Shown here: piece by piece, positions 38,442 to 60,190 of the stretch
How the letters are laid out: each line of letters begins with the position of its first letter
Position numbering within the stretch: the stretch's first letter is position 1
NCBI RefSeq assembly: GCF_039503195.1
Contig: NZ_JBCJKP010000001.1
Location: forward strand, 9,300,001 to 9,364,000
From: Streptomyces mirabilis
GTDB taxonomy: Bacteria; Actinomycetota; Actinomycetes; Streptomycetales; Streptomycetaceae
DNA length: 64,000 bases
Direction: 5' to 3'
Notes under the pieces: generated by a model
What the model saw: only the letters and a program-made list of their open reading frames with translations
Told to the model about the DNA's origin: nothing
Databases searched by the model: none
Position numbers and translations under genes: made by a program

Positions 38442-39647
38442 TCACACGAAGGCGCTCTGCCCGGTGATGGACTTGCCGACTATGAGGGTTTGCATCTGGC
38501 GGGTGCCCTCGTAGGAGTAGAGGGCCTCGGCGTCGGCGAAGAACCGTGCGATGTCGTAGTCGAGGACGATGCCGTTGCCGCCGAAGATCTCGCGGCTGAA
38601 CGCGACGACCTCCCGCATCCGGGACGTGGTGAACCCCTTGGCCAGCGCCGAGTGGTCATCGCGGAAGATGCCCTGGTCCTGCAGTCGAGCGAGCTGTACC
38701 AGCATGCCCCAGGAGGCGGTGATGTCGCCCAGGCTCTTCACCAGGAGGTCCTGCACCATCTGGAACCCGGCGATAGGACGCCCGAACTGCTGACGCTCCT
38801 TGGCGTAGGCGAGTGCGAGCTCATAGGCACCGATCATGACACCCAGAGCCTGCCAGGCGACACCGCTGCGCGTGAAGCGCAGGATCTCCGCGACGTCCCT
38901 GAAGGAGTTGATGTTCTGGAGGCGGTTCGCCTCCGGCACCCGTACGTCGTTCAGGGCGATCTCGGCGTTCTGTACGATCCGCAGCGCAATCTTGCCCTCG
39001 ATCTTCACCGGCACGAAGCCGGGGGTGTCTTTCTCGACGACGAAGCCCTTGACCTGGTTGTCGTCTACGTCCCGCGCCCACACCACGACGTGGTCGGCGA
39101 AGGTGGCGTTGCCGATCCACCGCTTCGCGCCGTTGAGGACCCAGGTGTCGCCCTGGAGCTTGGCGGTGGTGCGCATGCCACCGGAGACGTCGGAGCCACC
39201 CAGCGGCTCGGTCATGGCGAAAGCGCCGATCTTCTCCATCGAGGCCATGGCGGGCAGCCACCTCTGACGCTGCTCCTGGTCGCCGCCGGTGTAGATGGAG
39301 TAGAAGCTGAGCCCATTGTGAACGCCGAAGAAGGTGGCGACCGAGGCGTCGACGCGACTCATCTCCATCGCGAGCATGCCGCCGAGCAGATGGCTGACTG
39401 CAGGCAGGTGCTCACCGTAACCCTCGTAAGACAGGGCGGTCAGCCCGCTCCCGCGGAACTTCTCGATCAGTTCCATGGGGAACTCGCCCTTGTCCCAGTA
39501 CCTGTTGACCATCGGCTTCACTTCGTCACGCAGGAAGGCGCGGGCCTTGCGCAGCATCTTGCGCTCGTCGTCCGGGAGGAGCGCCTCGTAGAGGTAGAAG
39601 TCGGCGCCCAGCAGGTCGTCCGGCGGTGCAGGGGGAGTGGTGGTCAT
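38442..39647 (-). CDS. Acyl-CoA dehydrogenase, glutaryl-CoA dehydrogenase-like
   Basis: 401-residue flavoprotein of the acyl-CoA dehydrogenase family. Signature 1 is [20 protein letters not shown], followed by [20 protein letters not shown]; signature 2 region [21 protein letters not shown]-terminal catalytic Glu in [16 protein letters not shown], the position and YEGT motif typical of glutaryl-CoA and short-chain enzymes. It transfers electrons to ETF. ATG 39647 has AAGGAGAA. The CoA-transferase relic nearby suggests that both came from a former dicarboxylate or lysine degradation set. Confidence 0.9.
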
Positions 39648-40162
39648 GTCAGTTCTCCTTTTGGTGTCGGACATGGCAGAGGCGGTCCAGGGCGAACGAG
39701 CTGGCGAGGTATCCGTGGCCGCGGGCCTCGCTGTCCTGACCAGGGGTGTCCTCAAAGGTCAGCGTGATGTTGTCGGCGTTCGCTGCCAGGCCGTCTTCGC
39801 GTAAGGGTGTGGCGCGTCGGCCTTCTGCAGGAGCGGGTCAGTGACGGCCGGATCGATGGCCGGCCAGTTCGGCAGGCGTGCGCAGGTCGAGGTCCAGCAT
39901 GGCGACGGACCACGGAGGGCACGGCTCGACGGCGGGAAGCCGGCGTCCGTTCCCGTTGCCGTCTCACCATGACAGACGCTGCCAGACGGCCCGGTTTCTG
40001 GCTGAGCCCATCCAACAAGTCGTGTCCAACTCCATATTCTGCGCACCTTCGCGTCTTGGAGGCTCTTCGATTCCAGACCACCAGTTGACCGACGAGCCAC
40101 CCCGTTTGTGACGGCTGCCGACACGTGGTTCGTCCGACTGAGAGGGGTGAGAGTGCGAGGAG
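39648..40162. other. Upstream gap of the acyl-CoA dehydrogenase gene
   Basis: No supported gene. On the minus strand a short frame (DLDLRTPAELAGH, then after a stop [20 protein letters not shown]) ending directly before the dehydrogenase ribosome site looks protein-like but is broken; family not recognised. The remainder has poor coding character. Confidence 0.35.
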
Positions 40163-41740: not shown

Positions 41741-42390
41741 ATGTTGTCGCAGGGCGCCTACCAGATCAGCGCCGCGTCCTATGACATCCTGCAGGCGGAG
41801 CGTGACAGGGCACGGGTACGGCGACGGTATGCCGGTGATGTCAAGCAAGCCCGTGTCGGTGTGCTGGATGTCGGTGCCGGAATTGGCCGTGTCACGCTGA
41901 CGAGCCTCACCGAGTCGCAGGTACCGGTAGGTGCTGTCGAGCCGACACATGCCATGCGTTCGCCGTTGATGTCTCGGCTCGCGTCGAACAGACCGGCCTT
42001 CGCAAGGTGGCCTGCGTTGCGATATGCCACAACACGGTCGTCTGCCATCCCCCGACAGCCCGGCGTGCACTGTGGCCGGTCGTCGCCGACGTACCCGTGC
42101 CTGGAGGCACCTTGCTCCGTCAGCTTTCGCTGACCCGTCTCCCCCTTCGCGACACCGCATATGACCTGCCGATCCAGCGAGTTGGCGAGCACGAGTACGG
42201 GGGGACGCCTGATGACGCCGGCCGAGGCGGGCCGGATCCGGATTCGTTTCGCCTACTGGGTACGGGACGAGGGGGGCGTACTGAGTGAGCACAATGAGAC
42301 CTTCGGGATGTGGTCGGCCTCCCCCGAGAAGGTGATCGAGGAATTGAGGCAGTGCGGTTTCGCACCGTCGACCTATGGCCGCTCCGTTCA
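41741..42390 (+). pseudogene. SAM-dependent methyltransferase, frameshifted
   Basis: ATG 41741 frame: YQISAASYDILQAERDRARV, ARVGVLDVGAGIGRVTLTSL (SAM motif I), VPVGAVEPTHAMRSPLMSRL. A second frame carries CHNTVVCHPPTARRALWPVV then PGGTLLRQLSLTRLPLRDTA and RVGEHEYGG; a third carries IRIRFAYWVRDEGGVLSEHN then IEELRQCGF. Order and content fit a complete class I methyltransferase of about 240 residues, with a deletion and two shifts. Divergent from the HAD gene. Confidence 0.8.
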
Positions 42391-44013
42391 GCGCAGGTGC
42401 TCATTGGCGATCTCCTGGTACTCCTGCAAGGTCGGCTTGGGGATCTGCGAGCCCTCGCCGTAGAAGGCGCGGCTGAACTTGACACGCAGGCGCCGAGAAA
42501 GGCGGGCGTCGGCACCTGGACTCTCCGCTTTGCCGTTCGGGCCGGGTGCGATCGGCGTGTATTGCTCATGCTGTGTACGAAGGTGGAGTTCCGCCTGGCT
42601 CAGAGGCGCGTGCACCTCGACGAACTCGCCGTGCGGCAAGCGCTTGATGACACCGGTCTCGCGACCGTGCAGCACCTTGTCCCGATCTCTGCGTTGCAGA
42701 CCGAGGGCACACCGCTTCGTCACGGCGTAGGCTGCGACAGGCGCGACGAAGAGGCCGATGCGGACCGTCCACGTCACTGATTCGACCGAGAGATGGAACC
42801 GGGTGGCGATGATGTCGTTCGCGGCGCCGATGAGCGACACCAGGTAGAAGCTGATCCAGGCGGCACCGAGTGCCGTTCGCACAGGGCGGTTGCGTGGTCT
42901 GTCAAGAAGGTGCTGCTCACGATCGTCCCCGGTCACCCATGCCTCGATGAACGGATATGCGCCCATGGCCAGGAAGAGGCCGACGCCTGCCACCAGCGGA
43001 ATCAGGTTGTCCAGTGCCAGGGTGTGGCCCCAGAAGGCGATTTCCCAGCCGGGCATGACTCGCAGCAGTCCGTCCGCCACGCCCATGTACCAGTCGGGCT
43101 GCGATCCGGCCGAGACCTGGTCGACGCGGTAGGGGCCGTACAGCCAGATGGGATTGATCTGCGCGAGTGCCGCGATCGCGAAGATGACACCGGCGACCAG
43201 GAAGAAGAAGCCCGCGGACTTCACCGCCCGCACCTTGAGCGGCAGGCCCACCGCATTCTTGTTGCTCCGTCCAGGGCCTGGATACTGCGTGTGCTTGTGG
43301 TGGAGCAGCAGGATCAGATGGACCACGAGCAGTCCCACCATGATGGCTGGGATGATCAGAACATGGATTGTGTTGAAGCGCGCCACCAGTTCACTGCCCG
43401 GGAACTCGCCCCCGAAGAGAAACATCGAAAGGTAGGTTCCGACGATCGGTATGGAAAGGATCGTCCCGTTCACGACGGCGAGCCCGGTTCCGGAGAGGAG
43501 GTCATCCGGAAGGTCGTATCCGGTCAACCCTCCGAACATTCCGAGGATCAGCAACAGGAATCCGAACAGCCACTGGAATTCACGGGGCTTGCGGAAGGCG
43601 CCGGTGAAGAATACGCGCAGCATGTGGACGAGCATGGACCCGATGAACACCAGCGCTGCCCAGTGATGGGCCTGTCGGATCAACAGGCCGCCCCGGACGT
43701 CGAAGGAGAGGTGCATGGTCGAGTCGAACGCCTCCGACACCGTCTGCCCCCGCAACGGCATGTAGCTGCCGTTGTACTGCACCTCTTTCATTGACGGATG
43801 GAAGTACAGGGTCAGATAGACCCCTGTCACGATAATGACGATGAAACTGTAGAGACAGATCTCTCCCAGCAAGAAGGACCAGTGGTCCGGGAAGACCTTA
43901 CGTGCTTTAGCGCGGATCAGGCCGTAGGGGCCCAGGCGTCCGTCCGCCCAGCGGGCAATCCGATCGCCACCGCCTCCTTCGCCTGCTTCTTCTTTCTGGC
44001 TCTGATCATCCAT
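42388..44013 (-). CDS. Orphan cytochrome b of a bc1-type complex (QcrB-like)
   Basis: 541-residue integral membrane protein with the full actinobacterial QcrB layout: eight or nine helices, haem-ligand His pairs in RQAHHWAALVFIGSMLVHML and TIHVLIIPAIMVGLLVVHLI, FRKPREFQWLFGF loop, the Qo-site motif as QPDWYMG and a C-terminal cytosolic extension of about 140 residues. It would carry electrons from menaquinol towards a cytochrome c oxidase. No qcrC, qcrA or oxidase genes are adjacent, so it is an additional copy outside the main operon. ATG 44013 has AGGGG. Lies next to a WhiB gene. Confidence 0.9.
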   Translation of the reverse strand: MDDQSQKEEAGEGGGGDRIARWADGRLGPYGLIRAKARKVFPDHWSFLLGEICLYSFIVIIVTGVYLTLYFHPSMKEVQYNGSYMPLRGQTVSEAFDSTMHLSFDVRGGLLIRQAHHWAALVFIGSMLVHMLRVFFTGAFRKPREFQWLFGFLLLILGMFGGLTGYDLPDDLLSGTGLAVVNGTILSIPIVGTYLSMFLFGGEFPGSELVARFNTIHVLIIPAIMVGLLVVHLILLLHHKHTQYPGPGRSNKNAVGLPLKVRAVKSAGFFFLVAGVIFAIAALAQINPIWLYGPYRVDQVSAGSQPDWYMGVADGLLRVMPGWEIAFWGHTLALDNLIPLVAGVGLFLAMGAYPFIEAWVTGDDREQHLLDRPRNRPVRTALGAAWISFYLVSLIGAANDIIATRFHLSVESVTWTVRIGLFVAPVAAYAVTKRCALGLQRRDRDKVLHGRETGVIKRLPHGEFVEVHAPLSQAELHLRTQHEQYTPIAPGPNGKAESPGADARLSRRLRVKFSRAFYGEGSQIPKPTLQEYQEIANEHLR

Positions 44014-44313
44014 GCCCCTGCAACCATTCCTCATCCGGACCGAAAGGGACGCTCTTGATGTCATGAGCCTGTTTTGTAGCCGACAGGAAATGGATACGGC
44101 AGGTTAGTCGCCTGTCGTGGGCAGAGCTGAGACAGGCGGGGCATCAAATCTGTTTCCATCCGTGTTCCGTGTGTGCGTACGACCGAAGGTCGGACTTTCC
44201 GACGTGCTGCGCATAGCTGGGCAGCCCTGCCACGCCGCGTCGACTCAGCCCCCGCGCCGAATCCGGGATCACGGACGGTCTTCATGGTGGCTGCACTCCT
44301 TGGGCGAGCAGGC
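44014..44313. other. Intergenic stretch between WhiB and cytochrome b genes
   Basis: About 300 bases with no supported gene. It is the leader of the cytochrome b gene, and the leftward WhiB gene ends at its right edge, so both could share a transcript. No clear promoter was picked out. Confidence 0.3.
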
Positions 44314-44850: not shown

Positions 44851-45079
44851 CCTCGAGGGAGAGGGAGGAGCCGCTGCCCGAACTGCCTGGCGCTGGAGAA
44901 CTTGGCACTTCCGGCACGCCAGTGCTTCGGACCGCCGGGCTTGAAGGGCCAGGAGGACAGCGGCCTCGGTGAACTGGTCGGCGGGCAGGCGCAGCGGGCG
45001 GCCCTCCGTTTGTACGCCGGTCGTGGACCCCGAGGTCGCCTGGCCGAGGGCGGGCCGGTGTCCGACACCCACCACGCAG

Positions 45080-45119
45080 CCGGTATGCATCACACGCGGA
45101 CGTGTGTGATCCATACCGG
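45080..45119. terminator. Inverted repeat after the flavoprotein gene
   Basis: CCGGTATG (45080-45087) pairs with CATACCGG (45112-45119), and an inner imperfect pairing ATCACACG/CGTGTGTGAT extends the stem. It lies 65 bases beyond the stop of the leftward flavoprotein operon, consistent with termination; a regulatory dyad is the alternative. Confidence 0.5.
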
Positions 45120-45183
45120 TGCGCGGCGTGGCCGTGCCGATGCCCGAGTGCCGGTCACGCGCGCGGGCCATCGTCCGCCGTGC

Positions 45184-46884
45184 TCAGACCACGATCTTGC
45201 GCGGATTGAAGTTGCCGCCAGGGTCGGCAGCGCCGAAGAGGCCCGACATGATTGCGACACCCTCCGTCGAGATGTCCTCCTCCAGCCAAGGCGCGTGCTC
45301 CAGGCCCACCCCGTGGTGGTGCGAGATCGTGCCGCCGGCGTCGACGAACGCCTGCTGGATCCCGCGCTTGACGATGTCGTACTCGCCGAGCGGGTCGTCA
45401 CCGAACACGAAGGCGAAAGTGAAATAGAGGCAGGCTCCAGAGTGGTATGAGTGCGACAAGTGCGACATGGTCCAGCCTGCGCGGCCGATCTTCTCGTAGG
45501 CGTGGTCGGCCGCGTCGTAGACCGCCGCGTGGATGCCACGAAGCTTCGACCATGGACCGGCGGTCTCGCTCACGTCGCCGGCGGCACCGTGGTCGAGGAG
45601 GAAGTCGCGGATGTACGGCGTGTCGAACTTCTTCTGGTCGTAGAGCGCACCGGGGCCCCTGCCGACGCCGATGCCGTGATGCTTGCGCACGATCCGGTCG
45701 ACGAGCGACTTCTGCCGTTTCACGTGTGCCCCGTCGCCCTCGAAGCCGATGAAGGAGAGGCACATCTCGTCGAGGCTCCAGCCACGCCTCTTGAGATACG
45801 CCATGAGGCCTGTCTGTGCCTTCTTCTGAATGCCCTTCGACTCCTTGCTCGTCGCCAGGGAGAAGGCCGTCTCGTGCGCGTCCGAGATACGGGTGACCGA
45901 GGGCGAGACGTCGCTCTCGGCGATCTTCTGCATCGCAGCGAGGCCGTGGTCGAGATTCTTGAAGAAGTAGGCGTGGATGGCCCGCTTCTCGGGGAGTCGG
46001 TGCACCTGCACCGTGACCTCGGTGATGACGCCGAGCCGCCCCTCGGAGCCCACCACCATCTCCCGGACGCTCGGCCCGGTCGACGCGCTCGGAACGGCAC
46101 GGATCACGAGGACCCCGCCGGCCCGCACGACACGCAGCCCCTTGACGATGTCCGCTATGTCGCCGTATTTGTCCGACTGCATGCCGGACGAGCGCGTGGC
46201 GACCCACCCGCCGAGCGTCGAGTGGGTGAACGAGTCGGGGAAGTGCCCCATCGTCCAGCCGTCCCGGTTGAGTTGAGCCTCAAGATCAGGGCCCAGCGCC
46301 CCGGCCTGGACGCGCGCCAGCCCGGAGTCGGGGTCGATCTCCAGCACCCGGTTGAGGCGGCCGAGGTCGAGTGAGACGACCACCCGGGACTCGTCCATGT
46401 GCGGCTCAAGGCTGCCCGCGATATTGCTGCCGCCCCCAAAGGGGATGATCACGGCGTCCGCCTCGACGGACGCGTGGATGACGCTTTGCACCTCTGCCTC
46501 GTCGGCCGGGTAGACGATCACATCGGGACTGCGTGCTATCTCGCCGGCTCTGATGCGGACCAGGTCACGCAGGCTCTTGCCGTACGTGTGGACGACCCGG
46601 GACAGGTCATCGACAACGGTGTTCCCGGCTCCGACGATGCCGCCCAGAACCGCGACGAACTCCTCGGACGCCGTCGAGGCCGACACCCTCAACCGCGAGA
46701 AGTCGGGCCGTTCGGTGCGTTCGCCCGCCCAGAGATCGAGGCCGATGGCCTCTTGTACGAACGGCGCGAAACCAGGCTTGTCCTCGTGTCGGAAGCCGAC
46801 ACCTTCCACGCCCCAGCCCCACCACTTCATGTGTTTCACATCATCGGTGCGCATCGCGTCGGTGCGGTCGGTGGGTTCAGTCAC
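45184..46884 (-). CDS. Alkyldihydroxyacetonephosphate synthase-like FAD enzyme
   Basis: 566-residue vanillyl-alcohol-oxidase-fold flavoprotein. The FAD-binding N-terminal half has PDVIVYPADEAEVQSVIHAS, AVIIPFGGGSNIAGSLEPHM and TLGGWVATRSSGMQSDKYGD then VVGSEGRLGVITEVT. The C-terminal half has GACLYFTFAFVFG (active-site Tyr region of alkyl-DHAP synthase) and GGTISHHHGVGLEHAPWLEE, whose triple His is the hallmark of AGPS. Family reaction: exchange of the acyl chain of acyl-DHAP for a fatty alcohol, giving an ether lipid precursor. GTG 46884 has AAGGAGA and overlaps the acyltransferase stop (GTGA). Last gene of the leftward operon. Confidence 0.85.
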   Translation of the reverse strand: MTEPTDRTDAMRTDDVKHMKWWGWGVEGVGFRHEDKPGFAPFVQEAIGLDLWAGERTERPDFSRLRVSASTASEEFVAVLGGIVGAGNTVVDDLSRVVHTYGKSLRDLVRIRAGEIARSPDVIVYPADEAEVQSVIHASVEADAVIIPFGGGSNIAGSLEPHMDESRVVVSLDLGRLNRVLEIDPDSGLARVQAGALGPDLEAQLNRDGWTMGHFPDSFTHSTLGGWVATRSSGMQSDKYGDIADIVKGLRVVRAGGVLVIRAVPSASTGPSVREMVVGSEGRLGVITEVTVQVHRLPEKRAIHAYFFKNLDHGLAAMQKIAESDVSPSVTRISDAHETAFSLATSKESKGIQKKAQTGLMAYLKRRGWSLDEMCLSFIGFEGDGAHVKRQKSLVDRIVRKHHGIGVGRGPGALYDQKKFDTPYIRDFLLDHGAAGDVSETAGPWSKLRGIHAAVYDAADHAYEKIGRAGWTMSHLSHSYHSGACLYFTFAFVFGDDPLGEYDIVKRGIQQAFVDAGGTISHHHGVGLEHAPWLEEDISTEGVAIMSGLFGAADPGGNFNPRKIVV

Positions 46885-47603
46885 GAACGGTCTCCTTCAG
46901 GTATACGACGTGAGTTCGCACTCACGCCGAGGATGCGGTCGGAGTTCTCCTCGGTCAGGGTGAGGATTGCCGAGCGGATGCGTTCGGTGAACTCGCTCCT
47001 CAACTCCCCGGGAAAAGCAGTCAGCGGTTCGCCGAAGACAACCCCGACCGGCAGACGGCCCGGTTTCGGCCAATTCGATCCGCGAGGATGCGCCGCATGC
47101 GCGCCGATGACCGCGACGGGGAGCACCGGCACCTCGGCCGACGAGGCGAGCGCCGCCGCCCCCGGCTTGAACGCCCCGAGCGATCCGTCGCGCGAGCGGG
47201 TCCCCTCGGGAAAGATCAGGAGCGGCACTCCCCGACTCAGCAAAGCCTTGGCGCTCGCTCCGCGCGCGTTCATTCCGGTGCGGTCGACCGGGAAGGCGTT
47301 GAAGAAGAGGGCCGTGAGGCCGCGCCGCCGCCACACGTCGAAGAAGTAGTCGGCGGCGGCTCCCACCGCGAGGTAGCGCGCCAGTCGGCGAGGCAGCGCG
47401 CCCATGATGAGTGGCGTGTCGAGGTGCGAGGAGTGATTGGCGACGACGACATACGAGTCCTCGACGTCAGCCAAGCGCTCGCGCCCGAGTATCGTGACGC
47501 TGGTCACGCTCCAGACGAGGGGCTTCAGCAGCCCCCGTTGCGCGATGAAACGCGCCGCGGCGTGTGAGCGTGAGGTGAAACGGTCGCGTATCGTCGCGGG
47601 CAT
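46881..47603 (-). CDS. PlsC-family 1-acyl-sn-glycerol-3-phosphate acyltransferase
   Basis: 240-residue membrane-associated acyltransferase. Block I catalytic NHSSHLD is in VVVANHSSHLDTPLI; block II is FFNAFPVDRTGM; block III LLIFPEGTRSRDGSLGAFKP; block IV VPVLPVAVIGAH. It should acylate the sn-2 position of lysophosphatidate or the alkyl equivalent. ATG 47603 has AAGGAAAC. It is the middle gene between SDR and alkyl-DHAP-synthase-like gene, overlapping the latter, which places acylation in the same ether-lipid route. Confidence 0.9.
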   Translation of the reverse strand: MPATIRDRFTSRSHAAARFIAQRGLLKPLVWSVTSVTILGRERLADVEDSYVVVANHSSHLDTPLIMGALPRRLARYLAVGAAADYFFDVWRRRGLTALFFNAFPVDRTGMNARGASAKALLSRGVPLLIFPEGTRSRDGSLGAFKPGAAALASSAEVPVLPVAVIGAHAAHPRGSNWPKPGRLPVGVVFGEPLTAFPGELRSEFTERIRSAILTLTEENSDRILGVSANSRRIPEGDRS

Positions 47604-47642
47604 CCGTTTCCTTCCCGTGCGGGTTCGCCCGCACTGATTCCT

Positions 47643-48449
47643 TCAGTGAGTGAGACTGTCGTTGCGGCTGGAGGAGATCCGTCGCGAGATCCACCGCACT
47701 GTGCGGCGTGGAAGATGACGTGTGAACCAGATGAGCAACTGGTACCGGAAGCTCGGCACGGAGATCACCCGTCCGCGGCGCACGTCGCGCAGACTCGTCT
47801 CGACGAGTCGCCGGGCGTCGAGCCAGAGGAAGTTCGGAATGCTCGACGACCGGATTCCGGCCCGCGTGTGAAATTCCGTGCGGACCCAGCCCGGACAGAG
47901 TGCCGTCACGGTGACGCCCGTTCCATGGAGCTCGTTCGCCAGTCCCTCTGAGAGCGAGGTCACGAAGGCCTTGACGGCCGAATAGCTCCCCATGGTGACG
48001 AACCCAGCCGTGCTCGACACATTGACGATCGCACCGTGCCCGCGTTCGCGCATGGCCCGCCCAGCGACGCCGGCGAGCACCAGCACCACGCGCCCCATGA
48101 CCTCGATCGCCCGGTCGTGCGGAGTGGTGTCGGCCGAGGTCATCGGTGCGTGCACGCCGAAACCGGCGTTGTTCACGAGCATGTCCACCGGACGGGCGGG
48201 ATCCTCCAGCCGGGCGGCGACACGCTCGACGTCGGCACGATCGGACAGGTCTGCGGGCAGCACCTCGACAGCACAGCCCCGGGACTCGAGCTCGGCCGCC
48301 ATCCGGCCGAGCCGCTCCCTGTCGCGCGCCACCAGGACAAGGTCCCATCCGCGGTCTGCCAGAGCGCGCGCGAACGCCGCTCCGATACCCGACGTGGCAC
48401 CGGTGACAAGTGCGACCCGCGTGCGGCTCAGCACAGTCTCATCTGCCAT
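47643..48449 (-). CDS. Short-chain dehydrogenase/reductase
   Basis: 268-residue classical SDR. NADP-binding VALVTGATSGIGAAFARALA, NNAG motif VDMLVNNAGFGVHAP, catalytic Ser-Tyr-Lys in IVNVSSTAGFVTMGSYSAVK, and PG motif ALCPGWVRTEF. The C-terminal 45 residues (SFRYQLLIWFTRHLPRRTVR) are hydrophobic and basic, as in DltE-like or acyl-DHAP-reductase-like membrane-linked SDRs. In context it is the best candidate to reduce the keto group of alkyl-DHAP. ATG 48449; ribosome site distant. First gene of the leftward operon. Confidence 0.88.
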   Translation of the reverse strand: MADETVLSRTRVALVTGATSGIGAAFARALADRGWDLVLVARDRERLGRMAAELESRGCAVEVLPADLSDRADVERVAARLEDPARPVDMLVNNAGFGVHAPMTSADTTPHDRAIEVMGRVVLVLAGVAGRAMRERGHGAIVNVSSTAGFVTMGSYSAVKAFVTSLSEGLANELHGTGVTVTALCPGWVRTEFHTRAGIRSSSIPNFLWLDARRLVETSLRDVRRGRVISVPSFRYQLLIWFTRHLPRRTVRWISRRISSSRNDSLTH

Positions 48450-48985
48450 CTGCGCGACATCCGAGCTCCCCGCTCGTATCCATTTCGTGGGGCGGCGAGC
48501 GGGTCCACGCCGTCGATCCCGACACCGGCCTTCCGAGCCACCTGGTCAACAACCCGCTTCTGCATGGGAACTTGAAGATCCGCAAGATTTCCATGTTCGA
48601 CGTCCGACGAGCCGGCCCAGGTGAATGGCCACGGTCGTACAACAGCAGATGACTGAGTCCTCGCGCATGACACACCTTTCGTTTCTGGGCTCATGGCGTT
48701 AGACCGGGCATGCATCCGTGTTGTGACACGAGCTTCCGCACATGACCGAGGAGAGCGATGCCCAGCAAGGTCCGGCGCACGCCGCCTGCGCCGAGACACC
48801 ACACCGATCCGCGGGATCTCTCGCTCTTCCCAGCACAGGCCGTAAACGCAGGCCCCCATACGGAACCAACTCACATGTCACACATGCGCCGGTTGCCTGG
48901 TCTAACGTGACGGCCCCCGACGGCTTCTCGCATGCTCCGGGGCTTCTGCAGAGTTTCCCCTGCTCCCGCCCCAGAAAGCCCGTGT
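48450..48985. other. 536-base divergent control region of the two lipid operons
   Basis: No supported gene. It separates the leftward SDR operon from the rightward ferritin-like/FAR operon and must hold both promoters. Noticeable: TGTCACACATG at 48879-48889, shared in core with the WhiB upstream region, and TTGTGACACGAGC near 48721. One minus-strand frame (VPMQKRVVDQVARKAGVGID) looks protein-like but is short. Confidence 0.4.
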
Positions 48986-49813
48986 ATGAACTCGAACAAC
49001 GAGACGACGACCGCGCCGCCCGAGACAGCGGGATTCGACGTGCGTGAGTTCGCCCGTACGGCACACGGCAGCCACCGCGGAACGCTCGACCTCGGGTCGC
49101 TCGCCAAAGAGCCGCTCGACACCGAATCCGTCCGGCTCGTTCGCGCGCTGCGCGACATGGAACGTGCGACGCTGCACCGCGTGCGTGACCTCCTCGTCAC
49201 GGCGACACATAAGGACGCCCGTGTCACCGCGTTCCTCACCACGTGGATGTTCGAGAGGTTCTGGATAGCCGATGCCCTCGACGCCGTCCTGGATGTGTCT
49301 CCCGCCGCCCGCGACCTCCCGTCGAGCGCCGGTCCGGCACGGTGGGTACTGTCGGAGCGCCGCGAACGCCGTGGCCCGATCCGTCGTTCCCTCATCGCCA
49401 ACATCACCGGTACACAGATCGTCGCCGAACACGTGACGACGGGCCTCGTGGACGAATGGATCACGCACGCGGCCTATCGGCGTCTGGCCGGCGTGTCCTC
49501 CGCCATGGCGGCGATCATCAACCCTGTGGTGGAGATCAAGCATCGCCACATCCGCTTCCTCGCGGAGGAGGCGGAGCGCCGACTCCAGCGCTCGGCCCGC
49601 GCCCAGCGCATCACCCGCCGAGCCCTCCGGCACGCCGCCTGGCCGCTCGGCTCGGTCGACCGCTCCGGGCACGAGCGCATCTTCTTCGAACGCCATGTCT
49701 TCGGCGACCAGAGCGGGCGAGCCGAGGCGCGCCGTATCCGCGGGATGGTCGCCGCGCTCCCCGGCATCCGTCCCGGTGTCGCATCCACCGTGGAATCGAG
49801 GCTCCTTCCGTGA
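48986..49813 (+). CDS. Ferritin-like superfamily protein with one degenerate iron site
   Basis: 275-residue helical protein related to the one at 52125. LVRALRDMERATLHRVRDLL, MFERFWIADALDAVL and VVEIKHRHIRFLAEEAERRL correspond to the metal-ligand helices of ferritin-like proteins. The last helix keeps an E-x-x-H motif (EIKH), but the first E-x-x-H helix reads ERFW with His lost, so the diiron site looks incomplete. Possibly a structural partner of the second protein. ATG 48986; no strong ribosome site. Its stop overlaps the reductase start (GTGA). Confidence 0.75.
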   Translation: MNSNNETTTAPPETAGFDVREFARTAHGSHRGTLDLGSLAKEPLDTESVRLVRALRDMERATLHRVRDLLVTATHKDARVTAFLTTWMFERFWIADALDAVLDVSPAARDLPSSAGPARWVLSERRERRGPIRRSLIANITGTQIVAEHVTTGLVDEWITHAAYRRLAGVSSAMAAIINPVVEIKHRHIRFLAEEAERRLQRSARAQRITRRALRHAAWPLGSVDRSGHERIFFERHVFGDQSGRAEARRIRGMVAALPGIRPGVASTVESRLLP

Positions 49814-52125
49814 TATCGCACAACGCGAAGACCGAACTCGGCAACGCGCACGTCCTGCTGACCGGCGCGACCGGTTTCGTCGGGCAGGCGGTGCTTGAGC
49901 GGCTGCTCACCGACCACCCCGCCACCCACATCTCACTTCTCGTGCGCCGGAAGGGCAGTCAGACCGGGCAGGACCGGCTCCGACAGCTTCTGCGCAAACC
50001 CGTGTTCGAGCGCTGGCGAGATGCTGTGGGCGCCGAAGAGGCCGAGCGCATCGTCCGCACACGGATCACAGTGCTCGACGGCAGTATGACCAGCATCCCC
50101 GAGCTGCCCTCCCACCTTGATGTCGTCATCCACTCGGCGTCGACCGTCTCGTTCGACCCGCCCATCCACGAGGCGTTCGACACGAACGTCAAAGGCGCCG
50201 TAAGCCTCTACGAGGCCCTGCTCGCGTCCGGATTCGACCCGCACGTCGTCCATGTGTCGACCTGTTACGTCGGAGGGCTCCGTCGCGGTGTGGTGCCCGA
50301 GGCCAAGCTCGAACACGATGTCCTCTGGCACACCGAGTGGACCTTGGCGACACGAACCCATGAGCAGACCGAACTCACCTCGCGGGAGCCGGCGATGCTT
50401 GAGCAGTTCATGTCCCGCGCCCGCGGCAACCACGGGAAGGAGGGCCCGATCGCGGCGGCCCGCGCGAGCGAGAACGCGCGCCGCGAGTGGGTGCGTTCCC
50501 AGCTCGTCGCCGCTGGCCGGCGGCGCGCGCAGAGTCTGGGGTGGACCGACGTCTACACCCTGACGAAGGCACTCGCCGAACGTGCCGCGGAAGACCTCTG
50601 GGGCGAGGCCGGACACCGGCTTTCGGTGGTTCGGCCCGCGATCATCGAGAGCGCGTTCCAGCATCCGTTCCCCGGTTGGATCGACGGCTTCAAGGTCGCC
50701 GATCCGCTGATCTTCGCCTACGGCCGGGGCCAGCTGCCCGACTTCCCGGGGCTCCCCGACTCGATCCTCGATGTCATCCCCGTCGACTTCGTCGTCAACG
50801 CCATCCTGGCCGTGGCGGCCAACCCGACCTCTGTCGACGAGCCGAGGTACTTCCACATCGCCTCGGGCGCGTCGAATCCACTGCCTTTCCACCGCATGTA
50901 CGAGAACGTACGCGACTACTACACGCAGCACCCGATTCCCAAGGACGACGGATTCGTCAAAGTGCCGGCCTGGAAGTTCTCGGGCGAGCGCAAGTTCAAC
51001 CGGGGCCTTCGGCTGGCGAAGAAGAAGGCCGACCTGTGGGACGCCGCTCTGCGGCTGATGCCGAACGACGAGCGCAAGCGCGCTCTCGCAACCCAGAACG
51101 CCAAGCTGCGCGCCGGTATCGCCACCCTCCGCAACTTTATCGACCTCTACCGCGCGTATGCGCAGACCGAGATCGTCTTCGACGACCGCAACGCCCGCGC
51201 GCTGAACAACGCCCTTCCGGCTGAGGTGCGCGAGGACCGTGGCTTCGATGTGGAGCGGATCGACTGGGAGGAGTACCTGCAGAAGGTGCACCTCCCCGCC
51301 CTCAGTGAGATGACAGCGTCCTACCGTCGCCGGAAGGCCGCGGCCGCCCGGCCGGCGAACGCCAGGCCGCAAGGCGAACTGCCGCTGCGTACCGACGTAG
51401 TCGCCGTCTTCGACCTCGAACGGACCGTCGTCGACTCCAACATCGTCGAGCAGTACCTCTGGGTGCGCACCGCGGGCTTCCACAAGGCGGCCTGGCCGAA
51501 GGAGGTGGCGGACCTGCTCGCCTCACTGCCTGGCTACCTCCGCGCCGAAAGACGTGACCGCGGCGAGTTCATCCGCGCGTTCCTGCGCCGTTACCGCGGC
51601 ATGCCCATCGCCCGCCTTGAGGAGGTCGTGCAGCGCGGGTACGCCGATACGATGCTGCGGCACACGAGCGCGGACGCCCTGGCGCGTATCCGCGAGCACC
51701 GTGCGGCAGGTCACCGGACCGTCCTGGTCACCGGCTCCATCGGCCTTCTCGCCGCTCCGCTCGCCGACCTGTTCGACGAGGTCGTCGGGAGCTCGATGCA
51801 CGTGAGGGACGGTGTGCTCACCGGCTACCTGGCGAAGCCTCCGCTTGTGGACGAAGCGAGGGCCGCGTGGCTTCAGCGGTACTCCGAGGAGGGCGGCTAT
51901 GACCTCGCCGCCTCCTACGGTTACGGCGACAGCCACTCCGACCTGCCATGGCTGTCTCTGCTGGGAAAGCCCTCGGCGATCAACCCCGACGCCGTACTGG
52001 CGCGCGAGTCGCACAAGAGGAACTGGAACATCTACCGCTGGAAGAGCGGCGGTTCGGGTGTGCGCCGCGACGTCATCGCGGCACGGACGACGCTTCCGAC
52101 GCGCACCGACGAGAAGAGCGACTGA
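49810..52125 (+). CDS. Fatty acyl-CoA reductase fused to a HAD-IB domain
   Basis: 771-residue two-domain enzyme. N-terminal extended SDR/fatty acyl-CoA reductase: NADPH site VLLTGATGFVGQAVLERLLT, active-site Tyr-Lys in VYTLTKALAERAAEDLWG, FAR-typical PGWIDGFKVADPLIFAYGRG and LDVIPVDFVVNAILAVAAN. C-terminal HAD-IB domain (about 560-745): VVAVFDLERTVVDSN, VLVTGSIGLLAAPLADLF, SYGYGDSHSDLPWLSLLGKP. FAR reduces acyl-CoA to the fatty alcohol needed by alkyl-DHAP synthase. In the HAD motif the second Asp is Glu (DLERT), as in some PSP-like proteins, so phosphatase activity is uncertain. GTG 49810 is coupled to the gene before; its stop overlaps the next ATG. Confidence 0.87.
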   Translation: MISHNAKTELGNAHVLLTGATGFVGQAVLERLLTDHPATHISLLVRRKGSQTGQDRLRQLLRKPVFERWRDAVGAEEAERIVRTRITVLDGSMTSIPELPSHLDVVIHSASTVSFDPPIHEAFDTNVKGAVSLYEALLASGFDPHVVHVSTCYVGGLRRGVVPEAKLEHDVLWHTEWTLATRTHEQTELTSREPAMLEQFMSRARGNHGKEGPIAAARASENARREWVRSQLVAAGRRRAQSLGWTDVYTLTKALAERAAEDLWGEAGHRLSVVRPAIIESAFQHPFPGWIDGFKVADPLIFAYGRGQLPDFPGLPDSILDVIPVDFVVNAILAVAANPTSVDEPRYFHIASGASNPLPFHRMYENVRDYYTQHPIPKDDGFVKVPAWKFSGERKFNRGLRLAKKKADLWDAALRLMPNDERKRALATQNAKLRAGIATLRNFIDLYRAYAQTEIVFDDRNARALNNALPAEVREDRGFDVERIDWEEYLQKVHLPALSEMTASYRRRKAAAARPANARPQGELPLRTDVVAVFDLERTVVDSNIVEQYLWVRTAGFHKAAWPKEVADLLASLPGYLRAERRDRGEFIRAFLRRYRGMPIARLEEVVQRGYADTMLRHTSADALARIREHRAAGHRTVLVTGSIGLLAAPLADLFDEVVGSSMHVRDGVLTGYLAKPPLVDEARAAWLQRYSEEGGYDLAASYGYGDSHSDLPWLSLLGKPSAINPDAVLARESHKRNWNIYRWKSGGSGVRRDVIAARTTLPTRTDEKSD

Positions 52126-52919
52126 TGGCTTTCGACATAGACAAGTACACGAAGAACTCCACCGGCGTGCAGTGGGCCGACCTCGACTTCGAGGAGTTCG
52201 AGCGCAACCCGCTGCCCGAGGAGACGCTGCGTACGCTGCGCTATATGTGTGACATCGAATACCACACAGTGTGCTACCTGCGTGATCTGCTGACGACCCC
52301 GTCTCACGACGAGCCCGCGGTGGGCGCTTTCATGACGATGTGGAACCGCGAGGAGTTCTGGCACGGCGAAGCGCTCGCGGCCGTGCTGGAGCGCCACGGC
52401 CACCGAGTCGACTTCGACGAGCTCAAGGCGACCCGTCTGAAACTCGGCTGGAAGGACCGCCTGGGGACGGTGAAGCAGACGGTGATTGGCCGGCTGGTCG
52501 GAAACGACTTCGTCGCCGTGCACATGGCGTGGGGCGCGGCGAACGAGTGGTCGGCGACAGCGGCGTATCACCGACTTGCTGCGCTGGAGAGCCACCCAGT
52601 GCTGGTACCGCTGCTGAAGCGGATCGCACAGCAGGAGACGAAGCACGTCGCGTTCTACGCATCGCAGGCACGTGACCGGCTCGCGGCCAGCAAGAAAGCC
52701 CGCGTGGTCGCTCGGCTGGCGCTCGAAAACGCCTGGGGCCCGGTCGGCTCGGGCGTCATGCCCGAGACCGAGGTCACGCACGTCATGACTCACCTCTTCG
52801 CCGGCTCCGAGGGCCGCAAATTCATCCGCGACATCGACTCGCACATCGCGAAGCTGCCGGGCATGGACGGGCTGCGCATTGTCGAGGACGCCATGGACAA
52901 GCGCGGGATCGCTTCCTGA
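52125..52919 (+). CDS. Ferritin-like diiron protein
   Basis: 264-residue helical protein with intact diiron ligands: first helix CDIEYHTVCYLRDLL, E77-x-x-H80 in NREEFWHGEALAAVL, and E-x-x-H again in AQQETKHVAFYASQARD. Such sites activate O2 for desaturation, hydroxylation or aldehyde deformylation. It overlaps the reductase stop by one base (TGATG), so it belongs to that operon and most likely acts on a lipid alcohol, aldehyde or ether chain. It is distantly related to the protein at 48986. Function on substrate not known. Confidence 0.8.
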   Translation: MAFDIDKYTKNSTGVQWADLDFEEFERNPLPEETLRTLRYMCDIEYHTVCYLRDLLTTPSHDEPAVGAFMTMWNREEFWHGEALAAVLERHGHRVDFDELKATRLKLGWKDRLGTVKQTVIGRLVGNDFVAVHMAWGAANEWSATAAYHRLAALESHPVLVPLLKRIAQQETKHVAFYASQARDRLAASKKARVVARLALENAWGPVGSGVMPETEVTHVMTHLFAGSEGRKFIRDIDSHIAKLPGMDGLRIVEDAMDKRGIAS

Positions 52920-52921
52920 TG

Positions 52922-53067
52922 TTGATGTCAAACGGCTGGTACAACAGCTGACGTAATGAGCCGAGTTGTCGGTGGGTGATGAGGCAGCAGGTGAGTTTGA
53001 GGAACGCTTCATGGATGTTGGAACGGCGTTCTCAGCGGATGCGAAGGCGGTGGAAGCCGTGCGCTTT
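52922..53067 (-). pseudogene. IS5-type transposase C-terminal relic
   Basis: On the minus strand the sequence reads (with a stop in place of the usual Trp) HRLRIR then ERRSNIHEAFLKLTCCLITH followed by RQLGSL, the standard C-terminus of IS5-type Streptomyces transposases. It begins three bases after the diiron gene's stop, so an old insertion lies right at the 3' end of the lipid operon. Confidence 0.75.
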
Positions 53068-53186
53068 CCCCGTTGTTCCCCGCAGTGTCTGGCGCGGCTC
53101 CGGGGCAACGTCACAGGCTGCGTCGTGAGATGCAGTCCTGCTGCCACATCACCCGCCCACCTGTAACGCGCAAAAAGTACCGCTGA

Positions 53187-53858
53187 CTAATCATCGACGA
53201 ACGTGACCGTCTCGTCGAGCAGTGCTCGGCCTGTGCGGTTGTAGGGCACTGCGCTGTCTTCGAATCCGATCGACATACCGCAGAAGAGGATGAGGTCGTC
53301 CGGGGGTGACAGGACCTCCGCTACGGTCTTGCGATAAACCGACCACGCCATCTGCGGGCAGCTGTGCAGGCCTTCGGCACGGAGCAGCAGCATCACGGTC
53401 TGCAGATACATGCCCAAGTCGGACCACTGGGGCCGGCCCAGACCTCGGTCGATGTAGCAGAACAGCGCGGCGGGCGCGCCGAAGCATGTCCAGTTCGCGG
53501 AAGCGGCCCTCTGGCGGGCCTCCCAGTCCTCGTGCGCGATGCCGAGTGCGCTGTAGCGCTCCTCACCGAAGGCGGATCGGCGCTCCCGGTACGGGGACTT
53601 CAGTGTCGGCGGGTACATCTCGTATTCCCGCTCGTCCCAGGGATCGCACGCGGTCACACGCCCGTCGGCGAGCTCCTTGAGTTCGCCCAGCGGTCGGCCG
53701 GTCAGCACGTAGACGTGCCAGGGCTGGAGGTTGGACCCGGATGGCGCCCAAGCGGCAGCGGAGAGCACCCGCTCCAGTACCTCCCTCGGGACGGGCCGGT
53801 CGATGAATCCACGTACGGCTCGTCGGCTCGTGACTGCCTCGTAGACGTCCAAGATCAC
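53187..53858 (-). CDS. Nitroreductase-family FMN protein
   Basis: 223-residue nitroreductase. FMN phosphate/isoalloxazine contacts SRRAVRGFIDRPVPREVLER and AAAWAPSGSNLQPWHVYVL at the N-terminus; LGMYLQTVMLLLRAEGLHSC and GMSIGFEDSAVPYNRTGR at the C-terminus. It reduces nitro or quinone compounds with NAD(P)H. GTG 53858 with GAGGGAG upstream. A decayed copy with the same leader lies at 29435-29770, so this gene was duplicated within the region. Confidence 0.9.
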   Translation of the reverse strand: MILDVYEAVTSRRAVRGFIDRPVPREVLERVLSAAAWAPSGSNLQPWHVYVLTGRPLGELKELADGRVTACDPWDEREYEMYPPTLKSPYRERRSAFGEERYSALGIAHEDWEARQRAASANWTCFGAPAALFCYIDRGLGRPQWSDLGMYLQTVMLLLRAEGLHSCPQMAWSVYRKTVAEVLSPPDDLILFCGMSIGFEDSAVPYNRTGRALLDETVTFVDD

Positions 53859-57748: not shown

Positions 57749-58628
57749 CTGATCATTTCAGAATGAGATCCGTGTGGTGGCTTGGTAGTTGGGTGTTGTG
57801 TCGGCAGGATCTGTCGGGTGTCTGCTGATCTTGTGCCTGATGACCTCTGGGAGCGCATAGCCCCGCTGTTGCCGGTTCGGCCGGCCAGACGGCTCGGTAT
57901 CCCGGGCGTCTGCCGGTGGATGACCGGGCTGCGTTGCGGGGCATCGTTTACGTGCTGTGCAAGAGTGTGAGCTGGCGGGACGTTCCCGCAGAACAGGTCG
58001 GGTGCAGTGGGGTGACGGCCTGGCGGCGTCTGCGGGACTGGACCGAAGCGGGCGTCTGGCCGCGGCTGCACGAGGTCCTGTTGGCGGAACTGCGTCAAGA
58101 GGGCCTGGTGGAGATGGACGACGCCGCCATCGACGGCTCGCACGTCAGGGCGCTCAAGGGGGCTCACACCGGACCTTCGCCGGTCGACCGTGCCCGCCCG
58201 GGCAGCAAGCACCACCTCATCGCCGACCGGCATGGAACCCCACTCGCTGTCTCTCTGACCGGCGGAAACCGTCACGACGTCACCCAGCTCATGCCGCTGC
58301 TGGACGCCATCCCACCCATCCGCGGGTTACGGGCCGGCCACGCAGCCGGCCCCGGCGGCTGTTCGCCGACCGCGGCTACGACTTCGACAAGTACCGCCGC
58401 CTCGTCCGGGCTCGGGGGATCACACCGAAGATCGCCCGCCGCGGCACCCCGCACGGTTCCGGGCTGGGCAGGACCAGATGGGTCGTCGAGCGGACCTTCG
58501 CCTGGCTGCATCAGTTCAAACGACTGCGCATCCGTTACGAGATACGCGCCGACCTCCACCTCGTACTGCTCCAACTCGCCTGCAGCATCATCTTGAGACG
58601 ACTCCGAACCTCATTCTGAAACGATCAG
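57749..58628. mobile_element. IS5-family element, 880 bp, with TAA target duplications
   Basis: Ends CTGATCATTTCAGAATGAG (left) and CTCATTCTGAAACGATCAG (right) are inverted repeats with one mismatch; TAA flanks both sides (57746-57748 and 58629-58631), fitting the three-base T-N-A duplications of some IS5 subgroups. It carries one transposase gene, now frameshifted. Confidence 0.85.
57820..58619 (+). pseudogene. IS5-family transposase, two frameshifts
   Basis: Frame 1: SADLVPDDLWERIAPLLPVR. Frame 2: PVDDRAALRGIVYVLCKSVS, WRDVPAEQVGCSGVTAWRRL, VEMDDAAIDGSHVRALKGAH (first catalytic Asp), GTPLAVSLTGGNRHDVTQLM (second Asp region). Frame 3: RRLFADRGYDFDKYRRLVRA, RTRWVVERTFAWLHQFKRLR (catalytic Glu) to TGA 58619. 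The joins lie near 57893 and 58335. Programmed frameshifting is known in IS5 relatives, but two shifts without slippery sites point to decay or sequencing errors. Confidence 0.82.
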
Positions 58629-58800: not shown

Positions 58801-60190
58801 GGGTGTGTCAATTTAACGGCTGATCTTGGTTGTTGATGGTCAGTTGTTGCTCGGGGTCAGGCGGCCCTCGAAGGCGATCTGGAACGCGTTGAGGGGTGCT
58901 TTCCAGCGCATGGTCCACCTCTTGCGGCCCTTCCCGGTCGGGTCCAGGCTCATCAGTGCCATGTAGATGCACTTGAGGGCGGCGGCCTCATTGGGGAAGT
59001 GCCCGCGGGCGCGGACGGCCCTGCGGATGCGGGCGTTGACACTCTCGATCGCGTTCGTGTTGCAGATGACCTTGCGGATCTCGACGTCGAAGGAGAGGAA
59101 GGGCACGAACTCGGCCCAGGCGTCCGACCACAGCTTCACGATCGCTGGATACTTCTTCCCCCACGCCTCCTGGAAGTCCAGGAAACGTTCCGTCGCCGCG
59201 TCCTCGCTGGGCGCGGTGTAGACGGGCTTGAGGGCCTTGGCCACCTTGTCCCAGTCCTGACGGGCGGCGTATCGGAACGAGTTCCGCAGCAGGTGAACCA
59301 CGCACGTCTGGACGATCGTGCGAGGCCAGACGGTCTCCACGGCCTCGGGCAGGCCCTTGAGCCCGTCGCAGACCAGCATCAGCACGTCGTCCAGGCCGCG
59401 GTTCTTCAGCTCGGTGAACACGTGCAGCCAGTACTTGGCGCCCTCGCCGCCGTCGCCGGCCCAGATGCCGAGGATGTCGCGGGTGCCGTCCACGGTCACC
59501 GCCATCACCACGTAGACGGGACGGTTGGCGACCTGCCCGTCCCTGATCTTGACGTTGATCGCGTCCACGAACAGGACGGGGTAGACACGGTCGAGGGGCC
59601 GGTTCTGCCACTCGGCCATGCCCTCGATCACTTTGTCGGTAATGGTGGAGATGGTCTGCTTGGACACCTCGGCGCCGTAGACCTCGGCCAGGTGGGCGGA
59701 TATCTCGCCGTGCGTGAGCCCCTTCGCGGACAGCGACAGCACCATCTCGTCGACCCCGGTTAGCCGCCGCTGCCGCTTCTTGACGATCTGCGGCTCGAAC
59801 GTGCCCGAGGTGTCACGCGGGACTTTGACCTCGACCGGTCCGACGTCGGTCAGCACGGTTTTGGCCCGGCCCCCGTTGCGGGAGTTGCCGCTGCCCCGGC
59901 CGGCGGCATCGTGCTTCTCGTAGCCGAGGTGATCGGCGATCTCACCTTCCAGCGCAGACTCCAGGACCCGCTTGGTCAGCTGCTGCAGTAGCCCACCTTG
60001 CCCGGTCAGCTGCAGCCCCTCCCACCGGGCCCGCTCCACCAGCATCGCGACTAGTTGCTCGTCGGACACGGGCGCAGGCTGCCCCAACTGGGCACTCTCG
60101 GCAAGCTTCACGGTCTCCAACTCCACGGCGGTGTCAGTCACTTGACGTCTCTCCCATGATCGTCGGATCCGCCGTTAGATTTACACTCCC
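58801..60190. mobile_element. Intact IS256-family element, 1390 bp, with 8-bp target duplication
   Basis: Left end GGGTGTGTCAATTTAACGGC and the complement of the right end GGGAGTGTAAATCTAACGGC are inverted repeats (21 of 25 over the first 25 bases). ACAAGCCA lies on both sides (58793-58800 and 60191-60198), the eight-base duplication usual for IS256. It contains one complete transposase, so the insertion appears recent. A relic of a related element lies at 44732-44850. Confidence 0.9.
58840..60141 (-). CDS. IS256-family (mutator-type) transposase
   Basis: 433-residue DDE transposase, full length. N-terminal GLQLTGQGGLLQQLTKRVLE and EGEIADHLGYEKHD; first Asp in PVLFVDAINVKIRDGQVANR; second Asp in GLDDVLMLVCDGLKGLPEAV; C/H-type TIVQTCVVHLLRNSFRYA; Glu in ICNTNAIESVNARIRRAVRA. 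GTG 60141 has GGGAGAG. No frameshift, so the enzyme is probably active. Codes leftwards within the element. Confidence 0.95.
   Translation of the reverse strand: MTDTAVELETVKLAESAQLGQPAPVSDEQLVAMLVERARWEGLQLTGQGGLLQQLTKRVLESALEGEIADHLGYEKHDAAGRGSGNSRNGGRAKTVLTDVGPVEVKVPRDTSGTFEPQIVKKRQRRLTGVDEMVLSLSAKGLTHGEISAHLAEVYGAEVSKQTISTITDKVIEGMAEWQNRPLDRVYPVLFVDAINVKIRDGQVANRPVYVVMAVTVDGTRDILGIWAGDGGEGAKYWLHVFTELKNRGLDDVLMLVCDGLKGLPEAVETVWPRTIVQTCVVHLLRNSFRYAARQDWDKVAKALKPVYTAPSEDAATERFLDFQEAWGKKYPAIVKLWSDAWAEFVPFLSFDVEIRKVICNTNAIESVNARIRRAVRARGHFPNEAAALKCIYMALMSLDPTGKGRKRWTMRWKAPLNAFQIAFEGRLTPSNN

Follow-up and report, generated by a model that had tools for sequence, protein, structure and literature searches.

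Six genes within a 64,000-nucleotide stretch of the Streptomyces mirabilis genome (the whole analysed stretch, called the window here) very probably direct the synthesis of ether-linked glycerolipids by an aerobic dihydroxyacetone phosphate (DHAP) route. The genes lie in two divergent operons, on the minus strand at 45184-48449 and on the plus strand at 48986-52919, and encode a flavoprotein resembling alkyl-DHAP synthase (AGPS), a PlsC-type acyltransferase, a short-chain dehydrogenase (SDR), a fatty acyl-coenzyme A reductase (FAR) fused to a HAD-type domain (FAR-HAD) and two ferritin-like proteins, DI1 and DI2. The fuller proposal is that the cluster makes ether lipids, probably plasmalogens formed by way of DI2 and DI1, and that the set came from a Microbacteriaceae-like donor; taken whole, this statement is given a probability of about 0.45.

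In the proposed pathway, FAR-HAD would produce a fatty alcohol by reducing the corresponding fatty acyl thioester, and the PlsC-type protein would acylate DHAP, the later sn-2 position, or both. The flavoprotein is predicted from its family and residues to put the fatty alcohol in place of the acyl group, giving 1-alkyl-DHAP, which the SDR would turn into 1-alkyl-glycerol-3-phosphate. A plasmalogen then requires O2-dependent C1'-C2' desaturation of the alkyl chain. Co-conservation, fold and elimination suggest that DI2, as an O2-dependent soluble diiron protein, would carry out this desaturation to the vinyl ether, and that DI1 would act as its non-catalytic partner in the same step. DI2 is the candidate because no other member of the set combines a desaturase-like fold with a complete diiron ligand pattern.

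The AGPS-like flavoprotein

The flavoprotein gene (45184..46884, minus strand, 566 amino acids, GTG start) encodes the Pfam domains FAD_binding_4 and FAD-oxidase_C. A phmmer search against all PDB chain sequences placed it with the AGPS structures of Dictyostelium (2uuu, E = 2.9e-112) and guinea pig (4bby, 1.1e-80), both matched over nearly the full length of the protein, whereas the best oxidase match, a glycolate oxidase, reached 2.4e-27 over the FAD domain only; the AGPS structures thus lead by some 85 orders of magnitude in E-value. Residues R332, R426, Y487 and H522-524 align with the identical R419, R515, Y578 and H615-617 of the guinea-pig enzyme, which are presumably important for catalysis, and all six positions are invariant in 20 aligned relatives, one of them an outlier at 35% identity. 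The triple-histidine motif that the original prediction had pointed out is the H522-524 of this alignment.

That prediction had also named the comparison on which its flavoprotein assignment turned, AGPS as opposed to D-lactate or glycolate oxidases, and the comparison came out for AGPS. An oxidase would leave no ether-lipid cluster to explain. The FAD-binding superfamily is indeed shared, and the best NCBIfam row for the protein is GlcD, but its score of 133.7 bits falls far under the cut-off of 567.9, and the structure matches and conserved active-site residues speak for AGPS; the reading as a cluster built around an oxidase is therefore most improbable. Identity as a lactate or glycolate oxidase was rejected on the AGPS E-values together with the GlcD score below its cut-off. 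The flavoprotein is AGPS-like, with alkyl-DHAP synthase as its predicted activity.

Companion enzymes and operon structure

The acyltransferase gene (46881..47603, minus strand, 240 amino acids) matches Pfam Acyltransferase at 7.3e-22 and falls below the cut-off of the NCBIfam AGP_acyltrn subfamily; its product is a candidate DHAP or lyso-lipid acyltransferase. The SDR gene (47643..48449, minus strand, 268 amino acids; Pfam adh_short, 6.2e-44) has mycolate reductase as its best NCBIfam row, scoring 162 bits where the cut-off is 380, and its product is a candidate acyl/alkyl-DHAP reductase.

FAR-HAD (49810..52125, plus strand, 771 amino acids, GTG start) combines NAD_binding_4 (8.2e-45) with a C-terminal HAD domain (2e-32), a fusion that the original prediction had not mentioned. 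The YxxxK motif of the reductase domain (Y249/K253) is kept in 66 of 66 aligned relatives. The Sterile domain found at the C-terminus of FAR proteins lies just below the Pfam cut-off (34.6 versus 35.4 bits), and the label is accordingly no more specific than FAR-like. The HAD-IB-like domain scores 97.3 bits on TIGR01490 against 98.3. Motif I of HAD proteins is usually D-x-D; here it is D535-x-E537 (within residues 533-544), and D-x-E likewise occurs in 66 of 66 relatives, so that phosphatase activity of the domain is only putative.

All six genes named in the original prediction are present in two divergent operons, which are separated by an intergenic region at 48450..48985. Its further claim of overlapping genes inside each operon stands for AGPS/PlsC (4 bp), DI1/FAR-HAD (4 bp) and FAR-HAD/DI2 (1 bp), but not for SDR and PlsC, which are 39 bp apart. 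A sigma-70 consensus scan of 44900-53250 found no promoter site. The ether-lipid reading itself is well supported by the AGPS family membership, the conserved residues and the regular presence of FAR, acyltransferase and reductase alongside.

The ferritin-like pair

DI1 (48986..49813, plus strand, 275 amino acids, with an alternative ATG at 48932) and DI2 (52125..52919, plus strand, 264 amino acids) are paralogues of 31% identity. Neither matches a Pfam model at E<=0.01, nor an NCBIfam model when the open reading frames are trimmed to their likely starts. The six putative diiron ligands of DI2 (E45, E77, H80, E141, E171 and H174, in an E / ExxH / E / ExxH pattern) are all kept in 90 of 90 DI2 sequences, while five of the six ligand positions are kept in 0 of 81 DI1 sequences. 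The original prediction had not remarked on this loss of metal ligands. The possibility of two active diiron enzymes is rejected on this ground, and DI1 is probably a non-catalytic partner; a degenerate desaturase relative is known from DesA1/DesA2. The suggestion that a diiron protein modifies the chain, for example to a vinyl ether, is consequently possible for DI2 and does not hold for DI1, which is without ligands in 81 of 81 sequences.

The predicted fold of DI2, compared with solved entries, is closest to the soluble acyl-acyl carrier protein (acyl-ACP) desaturases, with identities of 12-18% to the ten best structural matches. By sequence alone, the best PDB match of DI2 reached an E-value of only 0.081. 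A profile of DI1 and DI2 together matched halohydrin epoxidase at 3.8e-4, which was taken as chance, and then DesA2 at 7.1e-4. Two relatives of DI2 score 17.4 and 18.3 bits on PF03405 (FA_desaturase_2), under its cut-off of 22.7, and precomputed PF03405 assignments are present on some database relatives.

Distribution of the gene set

Co-occurrence of the six families, for which the original prediction had proposed a search, was followed in the best 80 named loci among 255 relatives of DI2. The set is complete in 65 of the 80, mostly in Microbacteriaceae, and 63 have the same divergent order; because the six genes recur in this way, the set is not a chance assembly. The contigs of four of the other 15 loci (L019, L027, L045, L067) are short or cut off, and in the remaining eleven DI2, with or without DI1, stands apart from the rest of the set. 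Ten of those eleven genomes were searched: AGPS is present elsewhere at 63-71% identity in nine, Actinopolymorpha alba has a 37% AGPS match only, and FAR-HAD occurs in all ten at 44-65% identity. Six Jiangella genomes keep SDR, PlsC and AGPS together and have FAR-HAD some 1.5 kb ahead of AGPS; DI2 lies apart. A record of an Acidobacteria metagenome-assembled genome (L016) holds the full cluster, with an AGPS that falls among Microbacteriaceae in the tree described below, and is probably a binning error.

Among 249 Microbacteriaceae genomes, a close AGPS (E<=1e-120) is present in 69 and a DI2-family match at E<=1e-10 in 78. Leaving out G433, which has DI1 only, and G367 and G489, with matches of E ~1e-11 to 1e-12, gives 75 genomes with DI2 at E<=1e-100. 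Both proteins are then found in 67 genomes, AGPS only in two, DI2 only in eight and neither in 172, so that DI2 accompanies 67 of the 69 close AGPS proteins (Fisher p = 7e-49, a value that ignores shared ancestry). One genome, G422, has AGPS and FAR-HAD without DI2; the contig of G433 ends inside FAR-HAD, and that of G428 begins inside the cluster.

In a phylum-wide sample of 296 genomes, with FAR-HAD and AGPS scored on the best few candidates per genome, DI2-family proteins occur in 20: the window's own genome, two genomes with a lone DI1-DI2 pair, and 17 with relatives of 33-49% identity. FAR-HAD occurs in 78 and AGPS-like proteins in 46 of the 296, and neither protein alone marks the pathway. 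A separate AGPS-like subfamily, 33-40% identical (L124-L152), is found in 45 of the 295 Actinomycetota genomes besides that of the window, and just two of the 45 (G155 and G283) have a DI2-family match as well.

Lipid evidence bearing on possible plasmalogens

Dimethyl acetals arise from vinyl ethers on acid methanolysis. They are taken as an indicator of plasmalogens (PMC7472656), and four Subtercola species are reported with 6.9-17.0% iso-C16:0 acetal and 3.2-11.0% anteiso-C15:0 acetal (PMC5945732). The acetals listed for Subtercola are saturated, which is more in keeping with a vinyl ether than with desaturation in mid-chain. In Kineococcus rubinsiae, anteiso-C15:0 acetal identified by gas chromatography-mass spectrometry (GC-MS) was labelled C14:0 2-OH by the MIDI system (PMC7472656), and the "C14:0 2-OH" of Microbacteriaceae descriptions may be misassigned anteiso-C15:0 dimethyl acetal in the same way. 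Of five Subtercola type strains profiled with MIDI, four show 2-OH-C14:0 at 3.9-15.6%; no 2-OH peak appears for Subtercola endophyticus in the profiles of that report (PMC9287328). The Subtercola values fit such a misassignment in kind, not always in amount: for Subtercola vilae the methods disagree, with 3.2% anteiso-C15:0 acetal in one report (PMC5945732) and 15.6% 2-OH-C14:0 in another (PMC9287328). The S. vilae genome paper yielded no mention of acetals, ethers or desaturases.

Agreement between lipids and genes holds at the genus or species level only, and several taxa are silent or do not match. DI2 or the cluster is present in Agreia, Frigoribacterium and Frondihabitans. Frigoribacterium faeni is reported both to contain the acetal (PMC12823222) and to have 17.0% C14:0 2-OH (PMC7033078); two other species of that genus are reportedly without the acetal (PMC12823222), which is a misfit. 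The genome of Glaciihabitans tibetensis holds the full cluster (L088), and the species is described with 4.2% C14:0 2-OH. Lacisediminihabitans changchengi has the cluster, and the mere trace of C14:0 2-OH given for Lacisediminihabitans profunda is again a misfit. Three Herbiconiux species (L046, L052, L056) carry the cluster; the main-text passages of a Herbiconiux description mention neither acetal nor 2-hydroxy acid, its fatty-acid table being in the supplement. For Salinibacterium metalliresistens neither is named among the major acids in the description.

Weighing the role of DI2

Desaturation to the vinyl ether is the leading hypothesis for DI2, at a little under even odds, and the evidence against it is real. 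Acyl-ACP desaturases work on soluble acyl-ACP and are not known to act on ether lipids. Seven Microbacteriaceae genomes (G347, G378, G400, G423, G460, G529, G544) have adjacent DI1 and DI2 with no AGPS at E<=1e-120. The two of these lone-pair genomes that were searched, G400 and G460 (also numbered G240 and G283), have no FAR-HAD at E<=1e-10, and of AGPS-like proteins one has only a match at E = 4.8e-24 and the other only a protein of 35% identity. FAR-HAD (E<=1e-60) accompanies 16 of the 17 distant DI2 relatives in the phylum sample, and AGPS (E<=1e-70) only one. No DI1 was observed next to DI2 at the six Jiangella loci. On the side of lipids, no strain was found with both acetals measured by GC-MS and DI2 or the cluster (Kineococcus not being searched), and no Subtercola is among the DI2 matches listed. 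Frondihabitans is reportedly without acetals, C14:0 2-OH being one of its major peaks (PMC5945732); within this genus F. cladoniiphilus has DI2.

In a different division of labour, the cluster would still make ether lipids, and DI2, together with DI1, would desaturate or hydroxylate acyl-ACP or acyl-coenzyme A chains before their incorporation in ether or ester linkage, with no vinyl ether formed. Such a chain desaturase would agree with the fold of DI2, with relatives that score just under the FA_desaturase_2 cut-off or carry that domain in databases, and with the persistence of DI1-DI2 in genomes without a close AGPS. By itself, however, it gives no reason for DI2 to be kept in nearly every close-AGPS genome, and the acetals listed for Subtercola are saturated; we consider it unlikely. 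Less probable still is that the substrate of DI2 is what FAR produces, a fatty alcohol or aldehyde; DI2 might then be an oxygenase or an aldehyde-deformylating enzyme, for instance, and be linked to ether lipids indirectly. The assignment of the vinyl-ether step to DI2 is kept as the leading one and is restricted to DI2, given the absence of ligands from DI1.

The idea that DI2 strictly depends on AGPS was considered, and the seven lone-pair genomes contradict it. The lone pairs (L153, L213-L217, G460) sit in varied housekeeping surroundings, and no telling neighbour was seen beside those scanned. Pfam matches at L153 were DUF6230, DUF6114 and peptidyl-tRNA hydrolase; lysine-decarboxylase-like and NusA-like genes neighbour the pairs at L214 and L217, and LigD-polymerase-like and YchJ-like genes the pair at L216.

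Relation to known systems

The cluster resembles the eukaryotic DHAP route (FAR1, GNPAT, AGPS, acyl/alkyl-DHAP reductase and PEDS1) in having AGPS with the same active-site residues, and its FAR, acyltransferase and reductase families all map onto that route as outlined in PMC9131029. It differs in being operon-encoded, in the fusion of FAR to a HAD-type domain and in its two ferritin-like proteins. PF10520, the CarF/PEDS1 family, was unmatched in all 24 genomes searched, among which no positive-control genome was included. The Myxococcus xanthus elb operon and the MXAN_1676-1674 operon with CarF likewise bring AGPS, FAR-like, acyltransferase and HAD-type genes close together; the gene fusions differ, the desaturase CarF is of a different family, and the account of these operons does not speak of a ferritin-like pair (PMC9131029). 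CarF/PEDS1 is the one aerobic plasmalogen desaturase named in the literature consulted, with true bacterial homologues beyond the myxobacteria reported only in Leptospira (PMC9131029).

The soluble acyl-ACP desaturases (PF03405; castor, ivy and DesA2) share the E / ExxH / E / ExxH pattern with DI2 and are its best structural matches, in contrast to the low identity and the lack of a Pfam match noted above. PF09989, which we take to be a domain of the anaerobic plasmalogen enzyme, was found in one of 26 genomes, not that of the window. This one is the Ruaniaceae genome KH17 (L061/G014), which also has the present cluster and might hold two plasmalogen routes. The anaerobic plasmalogen reductases PlsA/PlsR would yield the same lipid class, but act on diacyl lipids (PMC9702350), unlike the DHAP route.

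Against this background we tentatively suggest, at somewhat less than even chances, that DI2 and DI1 form a soluble, acyl-ACP-desaturase-like plasmanyl desaturase, and hence a third way of making plasmalogens, unrelated to CarF/PEDS1 and to the anaerobic reductases. No assigned genes were found in the literature for aerobic Actinomycetes that bear marks of plasmalogens. In the openly licensed literature we found no earlier report joining ether lipids and AGPS with Streptomyces, none joining plasmalogen with a ferritin-like desaturase, and none on AGPS residues; for plasmalogens in Microbacteriaceae the one match was a review of the blood microbiome. If the suggestion is true, it would account for dimethyl acetals that are so far orphans in aerobic Actinomycetes, and taxonomy tables may conceal some of these acetals as "C14:0 2-OH"; the 2-hydroxy-C14:0 of Microbacteriaceae descriptions is worth re-examining as a possible plasmalogen-derived acetal. 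As a soluble candidate, DI2 should also be more tractable than a membrane enzyme.

Probable acquisition by Streptomyces

An AGPS tree was built from 62 sequences, those of the window and 61 loci, omitting frames with stops or shorter than 500 amino acids and rooted for drawing only. The window groups with four other Streptomyces and with Actinacidiphila in a single clade (100/99), which is sister to Schumannella (100/99) inside the Microbacteriaceae. Because the Streptomyces AGPS is nested among Microbacteriaceae copies, horizontal acquisition of the set from a Microbacteriaceae-like donor is likely. A DI2 match occurs in none of the eight other same-genus genomes of the phylum sample. Both observations fit the original remark that this is not a standard Streptomyces pathway, and the cluster amounts to a short list of testable genes that appear to have moved into Streptomyces as a block.

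The cluster is flanked by genes for a cytochrome b-like protein (42388-44064), an acyl-CoA dehydrogenase (38442-39755) and a nitroreductase-family protein (53187-53858). An IS4/5-like transposase and a Mutator-family transposase (57916-58596 and 58840-60141) lie 5-7 kb past it.

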